From NCBI RefSeq assembly GCF_028728065.1, contig NZ_CP117811.1, forward strand, positions 1 through 64,000: a stretch of 64,000 bases of DNA, written 5' to 3'. Of this stretch, positions 1 through 20,027 are shown piece by piece. Each line of letters starts with the position of its first letter. Position 1 is the stretch's first letter. Position numbers and translations under genes: made by a program. Origin of the DNA: Lentisphaera profundi. GTDB taxonomy: Bacteria > Verrucomicrobiota > Lentisphaeria > Lentisphaerales > Lentisphaeraceae. The notes under the pieces were generated by a model. The model was not told where the DNA came from. It saw nothing but the letters and a program-made list of their open reading frames with translations, and ran no database searches.

Positions 1-11
1 TTTTATTATGA

Positions 12-30
12 GAGGCCCAAAAAGGGCTTT
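12..30. terminator. Possible hairpin terminator at left edge
   Basis: A short stem (GCCC and GGGC around an A5 loop, extended by a wobble pair) lies at the left edge. It may end transcription of a gene outside the window or belong to a cassette end. The T-run after it is short, so support is weak. Confidence 0.3.
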
Positions 31-59
31 AAAGCAGCGTTATTTTATTGCATTATTGA

Positions 60-129
60 GTACGCATAAGTCGGAAATAAGGGTGTTATGTGTAGTACGC
101 ATAAGTCGGAAATAAGGGTGTTATGTGTA
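60..129. repeat. Two tandem 35-bp repeats upstream of the integrase, attachment-site-like
   Basis: Two identical 35-bp units lie head to tail at 60-94 and 95-129. Each begins with TACGCATAA and ends with TTATGTGTA, which are inverted copies with one mismatch, so each unit can fold. The right arm includes GTTATGT, close to the GTTRRRY-type core at which integron integrases cut. Lying about 100 bp before the intI start, they could be an attI site, a remnant attC, or operators for the integrase gene. Confidence 0.5.
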
Positions 130-226
130 CTAAGGCTAAGAATAAATTACATCTAATAGCTATTAAAAACTTGCTTATTGTTGGTTTCGCTTTTTAATTG
201 ATTTAATTCAAAGAGAGGAAATGATT

Positions 227-1501
227 ATGTCAAATATGCAGGTTTTTAAAAGTTTTTTGCTCAAACAAGTAGATGTCTCTGAAAAAAATGTTGATTATTA
301 TCTGCGTTGGGTTGTTCAGTTTGCGGATTTCTCTAGACGATTAGGAACTTCACCTTATGAGAAGGAGAGCTTGGATCAATATTTAAGGAGTCTATTTGGT
401 CGAGTTGAAGAATGGCAAATGAAACAATCAGAAGAAGCAGTGAAGTATTATTGGTATTGGAGAGGAGGTGCCAAATCTAAAGCTAGTGACTGGAAGAGTG
501 AAGAAGACTTACAGACTGAACGTCTGGAATCTAGGTATAATGAAGAGCATGATGATTTGCTGAGGAGTTTTGAGAAAGCGATGCGACTTCAGCAAAAGTC
601 GTATAGAACGATTCAAAGTTATGTATCATGGGTGGAAAGATATTTAGCTTATGCGAAAGGAAATTATAAAAGCAGTGATTGTGTTCGAGATTTTTTGTCT
701 CACTTGATTATGAGATTTAATGTTGCGGCATCTACTCAAAATCAGGCTTTATGTAGTTTGGTTTTATTTTTCAAGTATGTTTTACAGGATGATTTAGGAG
801 ATATAAGTGGAAGCCTTCGTTCAAAACGCAGTGAAAGGCTGCCTATAGTTCTTACGGTTAATGAGGTTCGACAGTTGATAGATCATACCATTGGCAAAGA
901 GCAATTAATGATGAAGTTGATTTACGGAGGAGGACTGAGAAAGAGTGAGTGCTTACGTTTACGAGTAAAAGATTTAGATTTTGAGCGAGGAGCATTAAAT
1001 ATATTAGCTGGCAAAGGTGATAAAGATCGACAGACTTTATTATCAAAAAACTTAAAAGATATTACCGCGCAGCATTTAGGTGGAATACGCCAGCTCTTTG
1101 AAAGAGATCGAATAGATTGTGTCGAAGGTGTTTATTTACCTAATGCACTGGTGAAAAAATATCCTAATGCAGGAACGGAATGGCAGTGGTTTTGGTTGTT
1201 TCCATCAGAGAAATTAAGTGTGGATCCTATGGCCAAGAAAAAGACTGTTCGGCGTCATCATAATTCGGGTCAAATGTTGAGTCGTGTTTTGAAGAAAAAT
1301 TGTAAAGACTTAGGCATTTTGAAGCATTGTACGGTACATACTTTACGACATAGTTTTGCTACTCATTTGTTAGAGAAAGGGACGGATTTGAGGACGATTC
1401 AGGAATTACTTGGTCATGAGGATATAAGTACGACGCAAATTTATACGCATGTACTTAATTTGAATCAGTCGGGAACGCAAAGTCCTTTGGATGATTTATG
1501 A
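227..1501 (+). CDS. intI: Integron-type tyrosine recombinase (IntI-like) with N-terminal extension
   Basis: Tyrosine site-specific recombinase of the integron integrase family, which exchanges cassettes between attI and attC sites. The catalytic domain shows Arg238 (GGGLRKSE), the HTLRHS box with His371/Arg374, LGHEDIS with His397 and the nucleophile Tyr406 in QIYTHV. The IntI-specific insertion lies at about 300-345 ([21 protein letters not shown]). IntI proteins are usually 320-340 residues; this one has about 424. Roughly 100 extra N-terminal residues contain a segment (about 5-40) that resembles the core-binding segment at about 113-147, so the arm-binding part may be duplicated. AGAGAGG sits best for the ATG at 227 rather than the one at 221. 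No cassette array follows it; if one exists it should lie beyond the left edge. Confidence 0.9.
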
Positions 1502-1896: not shown

Positions 1897-1955
1897 GCGG
1901 GCGAGACGCCCGCGTACCCAGGAAAAGTGCGGGCGAGACGCCAGCGGTCCCGGGA
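1897..1955. repeat. Two degenerate copies of the GCGGGCG-AGA-CGCCCGC hairpin repeat
   Basis: Diverged copies start at 1897 and 1929, 32 bases apart, matching the period of the intact array at 2106. The second stem has a mismatch (CGCCAGC), suggesting this array is older or decaying. Confidence 0.7.
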
Positions 1956-2105
1956 AGGTTGTTATTGAGGGTGGGGGAGAAAAAGAGGATGTTGTTTCGC
2001 TTAACAGCAGAATACGCTTGCCACCGTGGGCGGATGAAAATAAATTTTGCAGTTTTGGTGGCGATGCCAAGTTGATGCTTGGGGTACCCAAGTGATGTAG
2101 CTTAT

Positions 2106-2290
2106 GCGGGCGAGACGCCCGCGGTCCCAGGAAAAGTGCGGGCGAGACGCCCGCGGTCCCAGGAAAAGTGCGGGCGAGACGCCCGCGGCCCCAGGAAAAG
2201 TGCGGGCGAGACGCCCGCGGTCCCAGGAAAAGTGCGGGCGAGACGCCCGCGGTCCCAGGAAAAGTGCGGGCGAGACGCCCGCGGTCCCAG
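2106..2290. repeat. Tandem array of six 32-bp hairpin repeats
   Basis: Units start at 2106, 2138, 2170, 2202, 2234 and 2266; five are full length and the last stops after 25 bases. Each contains GCGGGCG, AGA, CGCCCGC, a perfect 7-bp stem with a 3-base loop, then a GGTCCCAGG-type tail and GAAAAGT. Copies are nearly identical (one T-to-C change in the third), implying recent expansion. The core recurs singly near 30918-30940 and 32053-32073. There are no unique spacers, so this is not CRISPR. Confidence 0.9.
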
Positions 2291-13071: not shown

Positions 13072-13183
13072 TATTTCCTCACTCATTTTCCTATTATTTG
13101 AAGCCTTTAAGGTAACGTAAGGCGTTCAAACTTGAAGATGAAAATCATGAGTAATAGCAGGTTTTACTAAAATTTAACAATGT

Positions 13184-13253
13184 TTAATCTTCGGCAATGA
13201 GCAAGGATGCAGAACTGATGACTTTAGACATCGAGGGGCTTAGTTCTAGGGAG
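13184..13253 (-). pseudogene. Remnant of a paralogue of the gene at 15536
   Basis: On the minus strand this stretch translates as SLELSPSMSKVISSASLLIAED and a stop, matching the C-terminus of the 116-residue protein at 15536 (SLDLNPSISKVISSASLLITED). The DNA matches over about 70 bases with mostly third-position changes, as expected of two genes that diverged under selection before this one lost its 5' part. Confidence 0.8.
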
Positions 13254-13357
13254 GTGTATATAAGACTTATGGACAGAGGAATAAGTGTCATCTGACTAGA
13301 AGGCTTAAGTAAAGGGTGTAATCTCTGTGAAAATGAAATCTAATCAGGGAAGTGTAA

Positions 13358-15259
13358 GTGAGTGATTTAAAGAGTGACCTTAATAAATTAGCAATATTTA
13401 GAACTTATTATGGTTTAACATATCTAATCTTAGCCTTAGTGAGTTTTGTACTTTTCCCCCAATCATTTACTGAAATGAGTGCGGGAGTTCTTATATTTAA
13501 TATCACGATAGTTTTGTCTTATACATTTCTTTATATGCTGCCTTTATTGATGGCTATGGCCCTTAGCTGTGGTTTTAATAAGGCATGCAAATTTAGTGAT
13601 CGAGTGAGTAACATCATTTCTTATACAGTGATGATTTTATCAGCAACATTTACGTCATTATTTTTCTACTTTGATTCGGAAATATTTAAGGGTTTTGGTT
13701 TCCACATTAATAGCTTTATATGGAATATCATTAGTACGCCAGGTGGGCTCGATTCAATGGGCGGCGGATATGGAATGCCTGTGATCGCGAGCATTTGGAG
13801 TATCTGCTTTGGTCTCATCTTTTTACTCATGTTATTTTTCGCGATAAAAATAGAAAAAAAGCAATTATTACCAAGTCGACTGAGCCGCAAAGTCAAAATA
13901 TCTTTAGCGTGTGCTTATGTGCTTATTTTTCTCTATCAAGGAACTGTTTTTGGCTTGAGCCATTTCCAAGCTAAAAGTCATATTGTTTCTTCTGCGTATC
14001 GTTATCCAGGCTACATATCGATTACTTTTAGGAGCTTTTTGATTAAGAAACTAGGAATGGAAGAGATAAGAGAAAAAGATATTGCGGTCAAAGAAAATTC
14101 TTCAGCATTGAATTACCCTTCGGAAAAAATACAATTTAACGAGCCCAAGAAAAAACTTAATATTGTTTGGTTAGTGGCGGAATCTTGGCGTTATGGAACT
14201 GCGACCGAAGAAGTCATGCCCACGACATTCGCTTTTAAGAATAAAGCCACGGTATTTGAACAACATTACAGTGGTGGTAACGGTACTCGTATGGGAATGT
14301 TTTCCATGTTTTATGGTCTCTATGGCCCCTATTGGTTTAAAGTACTCAATGAACGACGTTCGCCAGTATTGTTGGATGTGTTACAAGAACAAAATTACCA
14401 GATGGAACTCTTTACCAGTGCAAAATTTTCTTACCCGGAATTTGATAAGACTATTTTTTCGAATATCCCTAAGGAACATTTACATCCGTCTAAAGGTAAT
14501 GGCGGTTATTTAAATGATCGTAAAAAGGTGACTGAGTTATTAAACTTCATCGATGAACGCGATCAAACTAAACCTTTTATGTTTTTCATGTTTTTTGAAT
14601 CACCTCATGCACCCTATACATTTCCAGAAGATTTAGTGGTAAAAAAGGATTATTTGGAACACACAAATTACGCGATGGTGGATATTAAAGAAAACATAGA
14701 ATTGATTTATAATCGTTACCTAAATTCAATTTATCACCTCGATACACAGCATAAGCGTATTCTAGATTACCTGGAAGAAAAAAATCTCATGGAAAATACC
14801 ATTGTGATTATGACTGGTGATCATGGTGAGGAATTTATGGAAGCAGGCCGTTGGGGTCATAATTCGGAATTTCATCAAGATCAAATTCGAGTACCATTTA
14901 TATTATGGGTACCGGGACAAAAAGCGATGAAATATACTAAAATGTCAAGTCACTTGGATCTACCAGCACTCTTAGCTCCACATCTTGGGATTAGTAATAA
15001 ACCAGAAGACTATAGCTTAGGCCACGATTTATTAGGAGAAGGAGATCGCCAGTTTACAGTGGTTTCTTCTTGGAATAATGTAGGTTTAATTACCGAGAAG
15101 GGGAAAATAGATATCCCTTTAAGTAGTGCACTTTCTTTTGGTAGTAGTGTTACTAGTGTTGATGATAAAGCTGTTTCAAAAGAAGAGAAAAAAGAGATAG
15201 AAGCAACTCCACATCTCATGCAAATGTTTAAGGGTTTGAGTAAGTTTCTGGAGAAGTAA
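13358..15259 (+). CDS. Membrane-anchored sulfatase-fold protein, YejM/PbgA-like
   Basis: A 633-residue inner-membrane protein: five hydrophobic segments in the first about 210 residues, then a periplasmic alkaline-phosphatase/sulfatase fold. The core matches the YejM/PbgA/LapC family: NIVWLVAESWRYG, VMPTTFAF, HYSGGNGTRMGMFSMFYGLYGPYW and MTGDHGEEF. The position of the usual sulfatase Cys/Ser is held by the Thr in GNGTRMG, as in YejM. YejM proteins sense outer-membrane lipopolysaccharide and control its synthesis, so an envelope role is likely, but the partner proteins are not nearby. Start is GTG at 13358 with AGGGA upstream. Confidence 0.8.
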   Translation: MSDLKSDLNKLAIFRTYYGLTYLILALVSFVLFPQSFTEMSAGVLIFNITIVLSYTFLYMLPLLMAMALSCGFNKACKFSDRVSNIISYTVMILSATFTSLFFYFDSEIFKGFGFHINSFIWNIISTPGGLDSMGGGYGMPVIASIWSICFGLIFLLMLFFAIKIEKKQLLPSRLSRKVKISLACAYVLIFLYQGTVFGLSHFQAKSHIVSSAYRYPGYISITFRSFLIKKLGMEEIREKDIAVKENSSALNYPSEKIQFNEPKKKLNIVWLVAESWRYGTATEEVMPTTFAFKNKATVFEQHYSGGNGTRMGMFSMFYGLYGPYWFKVLNERRSPVLLDVLQEQNYQMELFTSAKFSYPEFDKTIFSNIPKEHLHPSKGNGGYLNDRKKVTELLNFIDERDQTKPFMFFMFFESPHAPYTFPEDLVVKKDYLEHTNYAMVDIKENIELIYNRYLNSIYHLDTQHKRILDYLEEKNLMENTIVIMTGDHGEEFMEAGRWGHNSEFHQDQIRVPFILWVPGQKAMKYTKMSSHLDLPALLAPHLGISNKPEDYSLGHDLLGEGDRQFTVVSSWNNVGLITEKGKIDIPLSSALSFGSSVTSVDDKAVSKEEKKEIEATPHLMQMFKGLSKFLEK

Positions 15260-16480: not shown

Positions 16481-18130
16481 TTAAAATTTCCTTAGGTGGC
16501 TTTCTATTGCCGTGTCTGATTTTTGGGGAAAATCATGGTTAAAGTGCAAGCCGCGACTTTCTTGGCGCGAGAGGGCACAATCAATAATGAGTTCTGATAA
16601 ACAAGCTAGGTTACGGAGCTCGATTAAATCAGGAGTGATATTGAAATCCCAATAATAATGGGTGATTTCATGCTGAATATTACGAATGCGACGTTTGGCG
16701 CGCTGAAGGCGCTTATTCGTTCTAAAAATCCCCACAAAGTCCCACATGAAAGAACGCATCTCTTGCCAGTTATGAGTAATAACAACCTGCTCGTCTGAAT
16801 CAGTAGCGTTGCCACTTGTCCAGCTAGGGACGGCATTCATTTGTGTTTGTAAAATAGACTGAGATAAAGAGGCATTCATTTCGGCGGCACATTCTGCGGA
16901 TTTTCCGCCCATGACGACGGCTTCAAGTAAACTATTACTAGCGAGACGGTTGGCGCCATGGAGACCTGTACAGGCGGTTTCACCGATAGCATAGAGACGG
17001 GTAATATTCGTAGTTCCACAAATATCGGTCTTCACACCACCACAGCAGTAATGAGCAGCAGGAACAACGGGGATGGGATCTTTAGCCATATTTAAACCAA
17101 TTGATTCACAAGTGGCAAAGATTTTCGGGAAACGCTTGCGCAGAAATTCTTCATTGTGATGAGTGATATCGAGATAGACGCATTTCTCACCCGTTTCTTT
17201 AAGTTCGCGGTCAATGGCGCGTGCTACGACATCGCGTGGAGCTAAACTTTTGAGTTCATGATATTTTTCCATGAAGTCGACGAGCTCATTTTTACGTCGG
17301 ATTTTCAAAATGGCACCTTCACCACGAACCGCTTCCGAAATGAGGAAGCTATTGATGCGATGATCAAAAAGGCATGTGGGATGAAATTGAAAAAATTCCA
17401 TATTTGCGATATCCGCATTGGCTCTGTAGGCCATAGCAATGCCATCGCCAGTGGCGATATCTGGATTTGTGGTATAGGTATAAACTTTGCCCGCACCACC
17501 GGTAGCTAAAATAGTAGACTTAGCTAGGAAAGTCGTGACGAGTTCATTATCTTTGTCGAGGATGTAAGCACCGAGGCAATTATTTTTATCAAGTCCCCAA
17601 CCGAGTTTACCCGTAGTGATGAGATCTATAGCGTGAAAATTTTCAAAAACCTCAATTCTATCTTCTTGGCGACAAGCTTTCTCTAGGGCACGTATGACTT
17701 CAGTACCAGTAATATCTCCCGCATGCAGAACTCGGCGTTGGCTATGACCGCCTTCGCGACCGAGGTTATATTGGCCTGATTCATCATCGTCACTCTCGTC
17801 CACTTCTGAACGGCGAGTGAATTTAACGCCGAGATCAATGAGTTTTTGTATGGCTGTGGGACCTGCAGAAACTATATCGGTGACGACTTTTTCATCGCAA
17901 AGACCTGCCCCAGCTTTCAGTGTATCCGAAACATGGAGTTCAAAGCTGTCCTGATCGTTGATATCACTCATGACACAGGAGATTCCTCCCTGAGCATATT
18001 TACTATTGCATTCGCTGAGTTCTCGTTTGGAGATCAAGGCCACTGAGCCATGTTCTGCTGCTTGTAGAGCACAGTACATACCCGCGAGGCCGCTACCAAT
18101 GATCAAGAAATCGTACTCGACTTTTTTCAT
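16481..18130 (-). CDS. nadB: L-aspartate oxidase
   Basis: FAD enzyme converting L-aspartate to iminoaspartate, first step of de novo NAD synthesis. The dinucleotide fold starts at FLIIGSGLAGMYCALQA, followed by NSKYAQGGISCVM, SEAVRGEGAIL and the GLHGANRLASNSLLEAVV signature near residue 385. The C-terminal helical domain is present. ATG at 18130 (MKKVEYDF) is preferred over a TTG five codons earlier; the ribosome site is weak. nadA and nadC are not in the window. A NAPRTase-like gene at 44494 hints that a salvage-type protein is also encoded. Confidence 0.95.
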   Translation of the reverse strand: MKKVEYDFLIIGSGLAGMYCALQAAEHGSVALISKRELSECNSKYAQGGISCVMSDINDQDSFELHVSDTLKAGAGLCDEKVVTDIVSAGPTAIQKLIDLGVKFTRRSEVDESDDDESGQYNLGREGGHSQRRVLHAGDITGTEVIRALEKACRQEDRIEVFENFHAIDLITTGKLGWGLDKNNCLGAYILDKDNELVTTFLAKSTILATGGAGKVYTYTTNPDIATGDGIAMAYRANADIANMEFFQFHPTCLFDHRINSFLISEAVRGEGAILKIRRKNELVDFMEKYHELKSLAPRDVVARAIDRELKETGEKCVYLDITHHNEEFLRKRFPKIFATCESIGLNMAKDPIPVVPAAHYCCGGVKTDICGTTNITRLYAIGETACTGLHGANRLASNSLLEAVVMGGKSAECAAEMNASLSQSILQTQMNAVPSWTSGNATDSDEQVVITHNWQEMRSFMWDFVGIFRTNKRLQRAKRRIRNIQHEITHYYWDFNITPDLIELRNLACLSELIIDCALSRQESRGLHFNHDFPQKSDTAIESHLRKF

Positions 18131-18308
18131 ATTTGTTTTTTCCAAAAATTTTGCTTAAATTACACGAAGGCGTGCTACTGACAAGCTGAGTTGACCTTTT
18201 GTGCCATTTATGCTGAAAAAAAAGTATTTGTGCTAGTTCGAATATTTTTATTGAGTGACTAGACGCATAAATTATTTTAGTGTTGATTGAATAATATTAG
18301 GAAGGATT

Positions 18309-20027
18309 ATGCCTCAGTTTATTAGATTGCGTCCAGAATATAAATGCCATGAATCAGAACAAAAAGTTGCGACTTTACTCCAGCGTTTACCCAGTCATTG
18401 GATCGTTGTATGGGGTTACTACTACAAAGGACCTCGCGGAGTTTCTCGAGAAGGTGATTTTTTAGTATTCAATCCAGATGCAGGTGTCTTAGTCATTGAA
18501 GCTAAAGGCGGAGTTTTACGCAGAAATAAAAAAACGGGTGAATGGAATACCCATGGTCGCACTGCTCCAGATTCACAATTATTTAGAGAAATTCAGGGAG
18601 TAAGGGATATTTTGGCCCGCGCAGGTGGCTCCTACAAAATGGTGGTTAAAGGTGTATTGGCTTGTCCTGATTTGTGTATTCAAGGAAAGGTGAATGAGTA
18701 CCAAGGCCTGCCACGTGAACTGATCATGGATCGTGATGACTTAGAGAGTTTTGTTCCTCAGATGGATGCGAAGCTAGGACGAATCATGAAAATTGGCGCG
18801 GGAGAAGCAGAAAAAATGTTTCGCAAGGCCTTTGTCAGTGAGGATGAGAGTGGCGTCGATCCCAAGTCGGTGAAAGAAACTGATAAGTACCTTACAAAAC
18901 TCATTAATTCAAAAGTTACACGGGTGCTGAATCATTTGATTCACAATCGCCAGTTTGTGGTCAAAGGCGCCCCAGGTAGTGGTAAATCGTGGATGGCACT
19001 CGGCTTAGCTAGGATTTGGGCAGGACGTCGTCGTGAACGAGGGGGTTCGGTATTAATTCTTTGTTATAATCGCGCTTTACGCAATAAATTAAAAGATATT
19101 GCAGATAAAATGGAGCAAGGAGGTCAAGCGCGCAAGGGCACAATCACGGTGCGGCTTTGGGAAGATTTAGCCCGAGATATTTATAAGCAGAATGGTTTAG
19201 AATTTGTAGTTCCTGATGAGCAAGCCGCTCGTAACCAGTTTTATGAATCTCAGCTACCATTGACTTTAGAAGGCTTAGTGGCAGCAGGAAAAGTTACAGC
19301 GGAATATGATTGCCTTATAGTCGATGAAGCTCAAGACCACGATACAGAGTTTCCCATACATGGAACTAATGGACCTGGCTGGTGGTCCATTTATTTTTCA
19401 TTACTCAAAGAAGGTGCAGCAGCACGTATTGCGGTTCTTTATGATTCGGATCAACGCCCGAGCTTTCGACGGGGTGGAATGAATGGTTTTGATGCAGAAA
19501 AACTTTATAGTGTCTTGGAGTCGAATCCTATTCGTTTGAATTTGTTCGAGAGCTATCGCTACACGATGAATATTTTTAAGTATCTCATTAAAATCAAATC
19601 AAATTCATCAAAAATTAGAACGATGGATTTAACTCCTGCAGAAGATTTACCCGCGGGGGAACCGGTAGTGGAAAAAGTACTGAAGCACCACCTCATTCCC
19701 AAGTACCTTGATGATACAATTAAAGATCTACTCAAACGCAAAGTCTGTCAGCCAGAAGAAATTATGATCATCGCCAATTCCTTTAGTAAAAATCGTCGTC
19801 TATTACCGAGTGGCACAATGGGGGGAGCTAAAATCAATAACGGCCTCTTTCCAGAGAAAAATAAGATCCTCTATATTTCAGCTAACAAAGTTAAGGGGCT
19901 CGAGACTAAAGTGGCATTTTTAGTCGGCTACGATGCCGATTTTCAGCAAGATGAGCAACAGTGTCAGAGTCTCTTCATTGGAGCCAGTCGAGCGCGGCAA
20001 ATATTGTACGTCGTTTTTACCAAGTAG
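18309..20027 (+). CDS. NERD nuclease-related domain fused to superfamily I helicase
   Basis: A 572-residue soluble protein. The N-terminal NERD domain has a PD-(D/E)xK-like core: Glu48-x-Asp50 in SREGDFLVF and Glu64-Ala-Lys66 in VIEAKGG. The helicase part has Walker A GAPGSGKSW (220-228), LCYNRALRNKL, Walker B LIVDEAQD (336-343), LYDSDQ, LFESYRYT, SANKVKGLETKVAFLVG and FIGASRARQILYVVF (UvrD-like motifs). It probably acts on DNA or RNA with ATP. NERD-helicase proteins are found in housekeeping and in defence loci; here it stands alone with AGGAAGG before the ATG, so its biological role is undecided. Confidence 0.85.
   Translation: MPQFIRLRPEYKCHESEQKVATLLQRLPSHWIVVWGYYYKGPRGVSREGDFLVFNPDAGVLVIEAKGGVLRRNKKTGEWNTHGRTAPDSQLFREIQGVRDILARAGGSYKMVVKGVLACPDLCIQGKVNEYQGLPRELIMDRDDLESFVPQMDAKLGRIMKIGAGEAEKMFRKAFVSEDESGVDPKSVKETDKYLTKLINSKVTRVLNHLIHNRQFVVKGAPGSGKSWMALGLARIWAGRRRERGGSVLILCYNRALRNKLKDIADKMEQGGQARKGTITVRLWEDLARDIYKQNGLEFVVPDEQAARNQFYESQLPLTLEGLVAAGKVTAEYDCLIVDEAQDHDTEFPIHGTNGPGWWSIYFSLLKEGAAARIAVLYDSDQRPSFRRGGMNGFDAEKLYSVLESNPIRLNLFESYRYTMNIFKYLIKIKSNSSKIRTMDLTPAEDLPAGEPVVEKVLKHHLIPKYLDDTIKDLLKRKVCQPEEIMIIANSFSKNRRLLPSGTMGGAKINNGLFPEKNKILYISANKVKGLETKVAFLVGYDADFQQDEQQCQSLFIGASRARQILYVVFTK

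Follow-up and report, generated by a model that had tools for sequence, protein, structure and literature searches.

The window, a 64,000-nucleotide stretch of Lentisphaera profundi DNA, comprises bases 1 to 64000 of contig C1 (2,808,341 bp) and carries near its left end an intact intI gene of 426 codons (positions 221 to 1501, plus strand), for which the position of a GAGAGG motif makes a start at 227 likelier than one at 221. The predicted product scored 364.8 bits against the NCBIfam integron integrase model TIGR02249 (cut-off, 265), and its nearest solved structure was 2a3v, the integron integrase of Vibrio cholerae (E=1e-75, aa 115 to 424). A canonical core-binding (SAM-like) domain (557 to 820, plus strand; PF13495, aa 113 to 193, 6.6e-23) is followed by the catalytic domain (848 to 1456, plus strand; PF00589, aa 210 to 412), in which alignments place R240, K265, H373, R376, H399, and Y408 on the catalytic set R, K, H, R, H, and Y. 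Alignment to 2a3v also located an IntI-type patch region at aa 317 to 347 (1169 to 1261, plus strand), as befits a member of the integron integrase family. The first-pass annotation had described an intact intI-like gene with catalytic residues and an IntI patch, with which the TIGR02249 score and the 2a3v alignment agree, and its interval of 60 to 1501 is correct to within one base. The Pfam matches alone require just a generic tyrosine recombinase fold and would suit an ordinary Xer-type or phage integrase lying beside chance repeats; that explanation has next to no chance of being right, given that the gene product exceeds the TIGR02249 cut-off while scoring far below the cut-offs of the XerC and XerD models, and it is already refuted by the array of 38 attC sites in line that is described below.

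Approximately 110 residues stand ahead of the canonical core-binding domain, and they appear to form a second SAM-like core-binding domain (about aa 1 to 90, then a linker; 227 to 556, plus strand). PF13495, to which the canonical domain also belongs, matched the extra domain in 19 of 20 aligned members (best, 1.5e-6), with not all of these matches reaching the curated cut-off; the window IntI's own extra domain gave 0.0011, below the cut-off. Its predicted fold consists of four helices, and the top PDB matches of the model were core-binding domains of IntI, XerA, and Cre, at E values of only 0.12 and above. The extra domain was present in 45 of the 69 IntIs compared, a set in which several "single"-domain IntIs of mixed clades start at contig ends. 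Its carriers include Desulfobacterales, Nitrospirae, Elusimicrobia, Spirochaetes, Kiritimatiellae, Kuenenia, and Latescibacterota, and the betaproteobacterial IntIs in the comparison are without it. By these domain predictions, the window IntI is a tyrosine recombinase with two core-binding domains, an architecture common to many phyla. Integron biology has been based mainly on proteobacterial integrases with one core-binding domain, and no description of an IntI with a second one was found in the literature searched, which covered few subscription papers.

The left flank missing from the window is the other end of C1, whose last bases (L017) end with further copies of a 35-bp unit that stands upstream of intI in two exact tandem copies (59 to 93 and 94 to 128, minus strand). 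The motif CCGACTTATGCGTACTACACATAAC occurs at C1:85-109 and at C1:2808314-2808338, 112 bp apart across the join, and the same spacing separates the motif pair in the attI copies on contigs C25, C26, and C33 of the sister species G002; C1 therefore closes on itself, apparently with no base missing. The attI/promoter region, which extends from intI to the first cassette and of which positions 1 to 220 (minus strand) fall in the window, was delimited by aligning six attI regions, two from platforms of this genome and four from G002. All six contain two modules of the form TTAT-N10-CATAAC-N15-TTAT, and five reach the junction ...CCATG^TT, after which all sequences diverge (the sixth, on G002 contig C26, stops before the junction). 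The crossover G^TT lies at C1:2808152, 189 bp to the left of window base 1. The attI region thus adjoins intI, homology stops at G^TT, and the first cassette has complementary R' and R'' boxes, beginning with G^TTAGTT at C1:2808152 and having an attC that begins with AACTAAC. In a search for an outward promoter Pc, sigma-70 matches were no more frequent than expected by chance.

Module 1 (66 to 104, minus strand) runs across the boundary of both 35-bp units, and module 2 lies across the contig join from it (C1:2808295-2808333). The exact module pattern was found four times in this genome (two per platform) and eight times in G002; every occurrence belongs to a pair, spaced 112 or 100 bp, at an intI platform, and neither genome has the pattern elsewhere. 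It was absent from G001, the next sister genome (IntI, 60% identical), and outside these genomes it gave one isolated match, in another family. No copy of the 35-bp tandem was found elsewhere in the 5.46-Mb genome at up to three mismatches, so the unit is no general intergenic repeat, and an exact scan of viral contigs did not find it. The exact doubling in the window is local and lies within a module; in the sister species, the second copy has diverged.

The two identical 35-bp units approximately 100 bp from intI are therefore as first described, and the dispersal that would have made them a general repeat was not seen. The first-pass annotation took them for an attI site or two short attC-like sites. 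The former stands in that the repeats belong to the attI region, since they occur only at intI platforms, between intI and the first cassette; the latter is not supported, for the real attC sites are 58 to 67 bp long, lie elsewhere, and have another sequence and fold. Its account of the IntI and the repeats holds as far as it went, the extra N-terminal domain and the unit's other module half having been overlooked.

As judged from sequence, the 35-bp units probably serve attI as accessory sites for integrase binding or for regulation. The R'/R''-like boxes ACATAAC and GTTATGT at their ends could suggest that the units are themselves recombination sites (an attI core or a short attC, as originally proposed). 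This is very improbable, because the units carry no cassette boundary, the attI regions diverge at the G^TT of C1:2808152 with the cassette junctions following from there, and the units, whose folding had been pointed to as a check, fold weakly (z = -1.97 on one strand and +0.44 on the other). An appreciable, if minority, chance is given to the proposal that the modules are operators, bound by a host regulator or by IntI, that govern transcription of intI and the cassettes without any involvement in recombination. Their position 90 to 160 bp upstream of intI, their distance from the crossover (the units and modules lie approximately 140 to 250 bp away), and the near-palindrome TTATG-N9-CATAAC would all suit operators, whereas the invariable occurrence of two modules at one of two fixed spacings would not, and the arm GTTATGT is also the R' box of a real attC (L014:14318-14384), which supports IntI as the binder of the units. 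In the accessory-site interpretation that we prefer, the units of the two-module attI region would bind IntI or would control transcription.

The window stops before any cassette array, as had been noted, and an attC covariance model found no match within its 64 kb. Leftward extension across the contig join showed that attC sites and cassettes, which the first-pass annotation had regarded as decisive if missing, both adjoin intI. The array consists of 38 cassettes spanning 25 kb (C1:2782265-2807792), with small ORFs that nearly all point away from intI and, between them, attC sites of the form NNNNAAC-CATGAGCTGCAG...CTCGGTC-GTTNNNN. A VapBC-type toxin-antitoxin cassette is among them, and no Rfam families were detected in the attI region or the array. 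The sites were located with a strict regular expression, a more permissive one having yielded many spurious hits, and then with the covariance model, which was built from 42 sites. The model returned 91 matches in this genome and, for two further members of the genus, 89 and 32; three genomes from other genera gave no match. The attC sites have R'' and R' boxes, a folded bottom strand, and an extrahelical base, and their mean column identity is 84%. Between two attC variants, the stem is kept through four compensatory pair changes and the extrahelical A is invariant, as counted on a hand-registered structure with variant B shifted by one column; an automatic pair count on the unregistered alignment also preferred the named structure over slid versions. 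RNAalifold recovered only 6 pairs from the alignment, folding energies and z-scores of single sites were weak, and two shorter sites are without one stem arm.

Cassettes that derive from circles opened at G^TT should each have a start complementary to the box of their own attC. Comparison of the four bases after GTT at the cassette start with the four before AAC of the same cassette's attC revealed complementary R'/R'' ends in 34 of the 38 cassettes (mean of 2.9 and maximum of 10 in 5000 shuffles). A second array (C1:1893015-1915234) gave 35 of 39 (mean of 2.8 and maximum of 10; n=5000). The cassette starting with GTTGGACGAAAATATGCC is found both in the window's array and as the first cassette of the intI2 platform. 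These observations suggest that the cassettes are exchangeable as circles.

We interpret the locus as a complete sedentary chromosomal integron that was split by linearisation of a circular replicon and whose two-module attI region contains the 35-bp units, a reading to which we assign a probability of roughly 0.93. Its gene, attI, attC sites, cassettes, and closed-circle signature can be traced in the DNA itself, its architecture is common with the sister species, and 38 cassettes with similar attC sites on a 2.8-Mb contig place it in the sedentary class (>20 cassettes on a chromosome). IntI, which is presumably active in recombination, would cut folded single-stranded attC and double-stranded attI (G^TT, C1:2808152) and would thereby insert, remove, and shuffle cassettes in an array of 38 that reads away from intI.

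The genome contains three integron platforms, which have a single attC family in common; at two of them the attI region is large and modular. A tandem IntI pair occupies one platform (C1:1889559-1892037, within C1:1889556-1892058; L014:7557-10059): ahead of an intact IntI stands an IntI-like partner of 404 aa that lacks the GKGDKDR Lys and carries D in place of H in HxxR. The G002 orthologue of the partner is 85% identical and shows the same catalytic losses; tandem pairs also lie at L114:7591-10092 and L113:8564-11248, the one at L113 being a further pair of G002 with a similar partner. The three partners form one clade (100/99) with long branches. Between species orthologues, dN/dS was 0.15 to 0.22 for the partner and 0.05 to 0.07 for its catalytic mate, indicating that the partner is still constrained. 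A bolder proposal, which we consider unlikely, is that some integrons of the genus depend on two dedicated recombinases, namely a catalytic IntI and a conserved IntI-like partner devoid of the catalytic Lys and the HxxR His, which may be a non-cleaving protomer or a DNA-binding regulator, and that a distinct integron type is recognisable by its double core-binding domains and paired attI modules; the double core-binding domain of such a type would be spread over many non-proteobacterial phyla.

On G002 contigs C25 and C33 (L122:7625-7864; L121:8254-8493), the intI next to a complete attI is reduced to its last ~52 codons, 91 to 92% identical to the window gene; these loci represent duplicated platforms with a truncated integrase. 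Sites without a complete intI nearby include a cluster of seven attC matches (L124; C1:600684-606950), two and one matches on C2 (L125 and L126), and an attC (L015:4487-4553) beside an intI fragment at C1:1360432. At all three platforms, a palindromic GC-rich repeat, GCGGGCGAGACGCCCGCGGTCCC, of which the genome has 33 copies, occurs within ~500 bp downstream of the intI stop (window positions 1929 to 2288; C1:653753-653991; C1:1888933-1889401).

Identical copies of an IS91-type transposase (Y2_Tnp, Zn_Tnp_IS91) are present as a gene cassette with its own divergent attC (L017:10515-11931, 13160-14576, and 17618-19034; L014:14747-16325; L020, around 17183-18825), and homologous transposase cassettes stand first in two G002 platforms. 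Insertion of these copies targeted to attC was considered and rejected: each has its own attC, with R'' GTACAAC complementary to R' GTTGTAC, and the copies are therefore cassettes. In one copy (L020, around 17150-17250), the attC segment GAACTGATC...CTCGAACGTT is doubled in tandem.

The integron resembles the V. cholerae superintegron (IntIA/attIA/VCR) in that intI is divergent from a long array whose small genes are mostly unknown, attC sites are near-identical within the genome, and a VapBC-type toxin-antitoxin cassette is present. It differs in the second core-binding domain of its IntI and in the three platforms of one genome. The repeated extra integrase-type boxes beside the crossover recall DR1 and DR2 of the class 1 site attI1, which are nearer to the crossover; the modules here, with putative IntI binding, are ~39 bp long, spaced 100 or 112 bp, and 140 to 250 bp from it. 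The two extra direct repeats of attI1 are supplementary binding sites that favour attI x attC recombination, whereas attIA, unlike the attI described here with its two long modules, reportedly lacks repeats of this kind (PMC8946536). Integrons as such are not new in the genus Lentisphaera, since the L. araneosa IntI was included in a published IntI tree; mentions of the enzyme in that paper, as far as traced by name, only list it in the tree (PMC3108266).

Thus, a PVC-type genome holds three platforms with one attC family and integrases with a predicted duplicated core-binding domain, and the same IntI architecture occurs in Desulfobacterota, Nitrospirota, Spirochaetota, Elusimicrobiota, and others. 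With its defined attI, attC sites, and cassettes, the window integron is directly testable. Should the additional domain or the attI modules affect the way in which IntI locates its sites, present models of attC and attI recognition would cover only part of the diversity.
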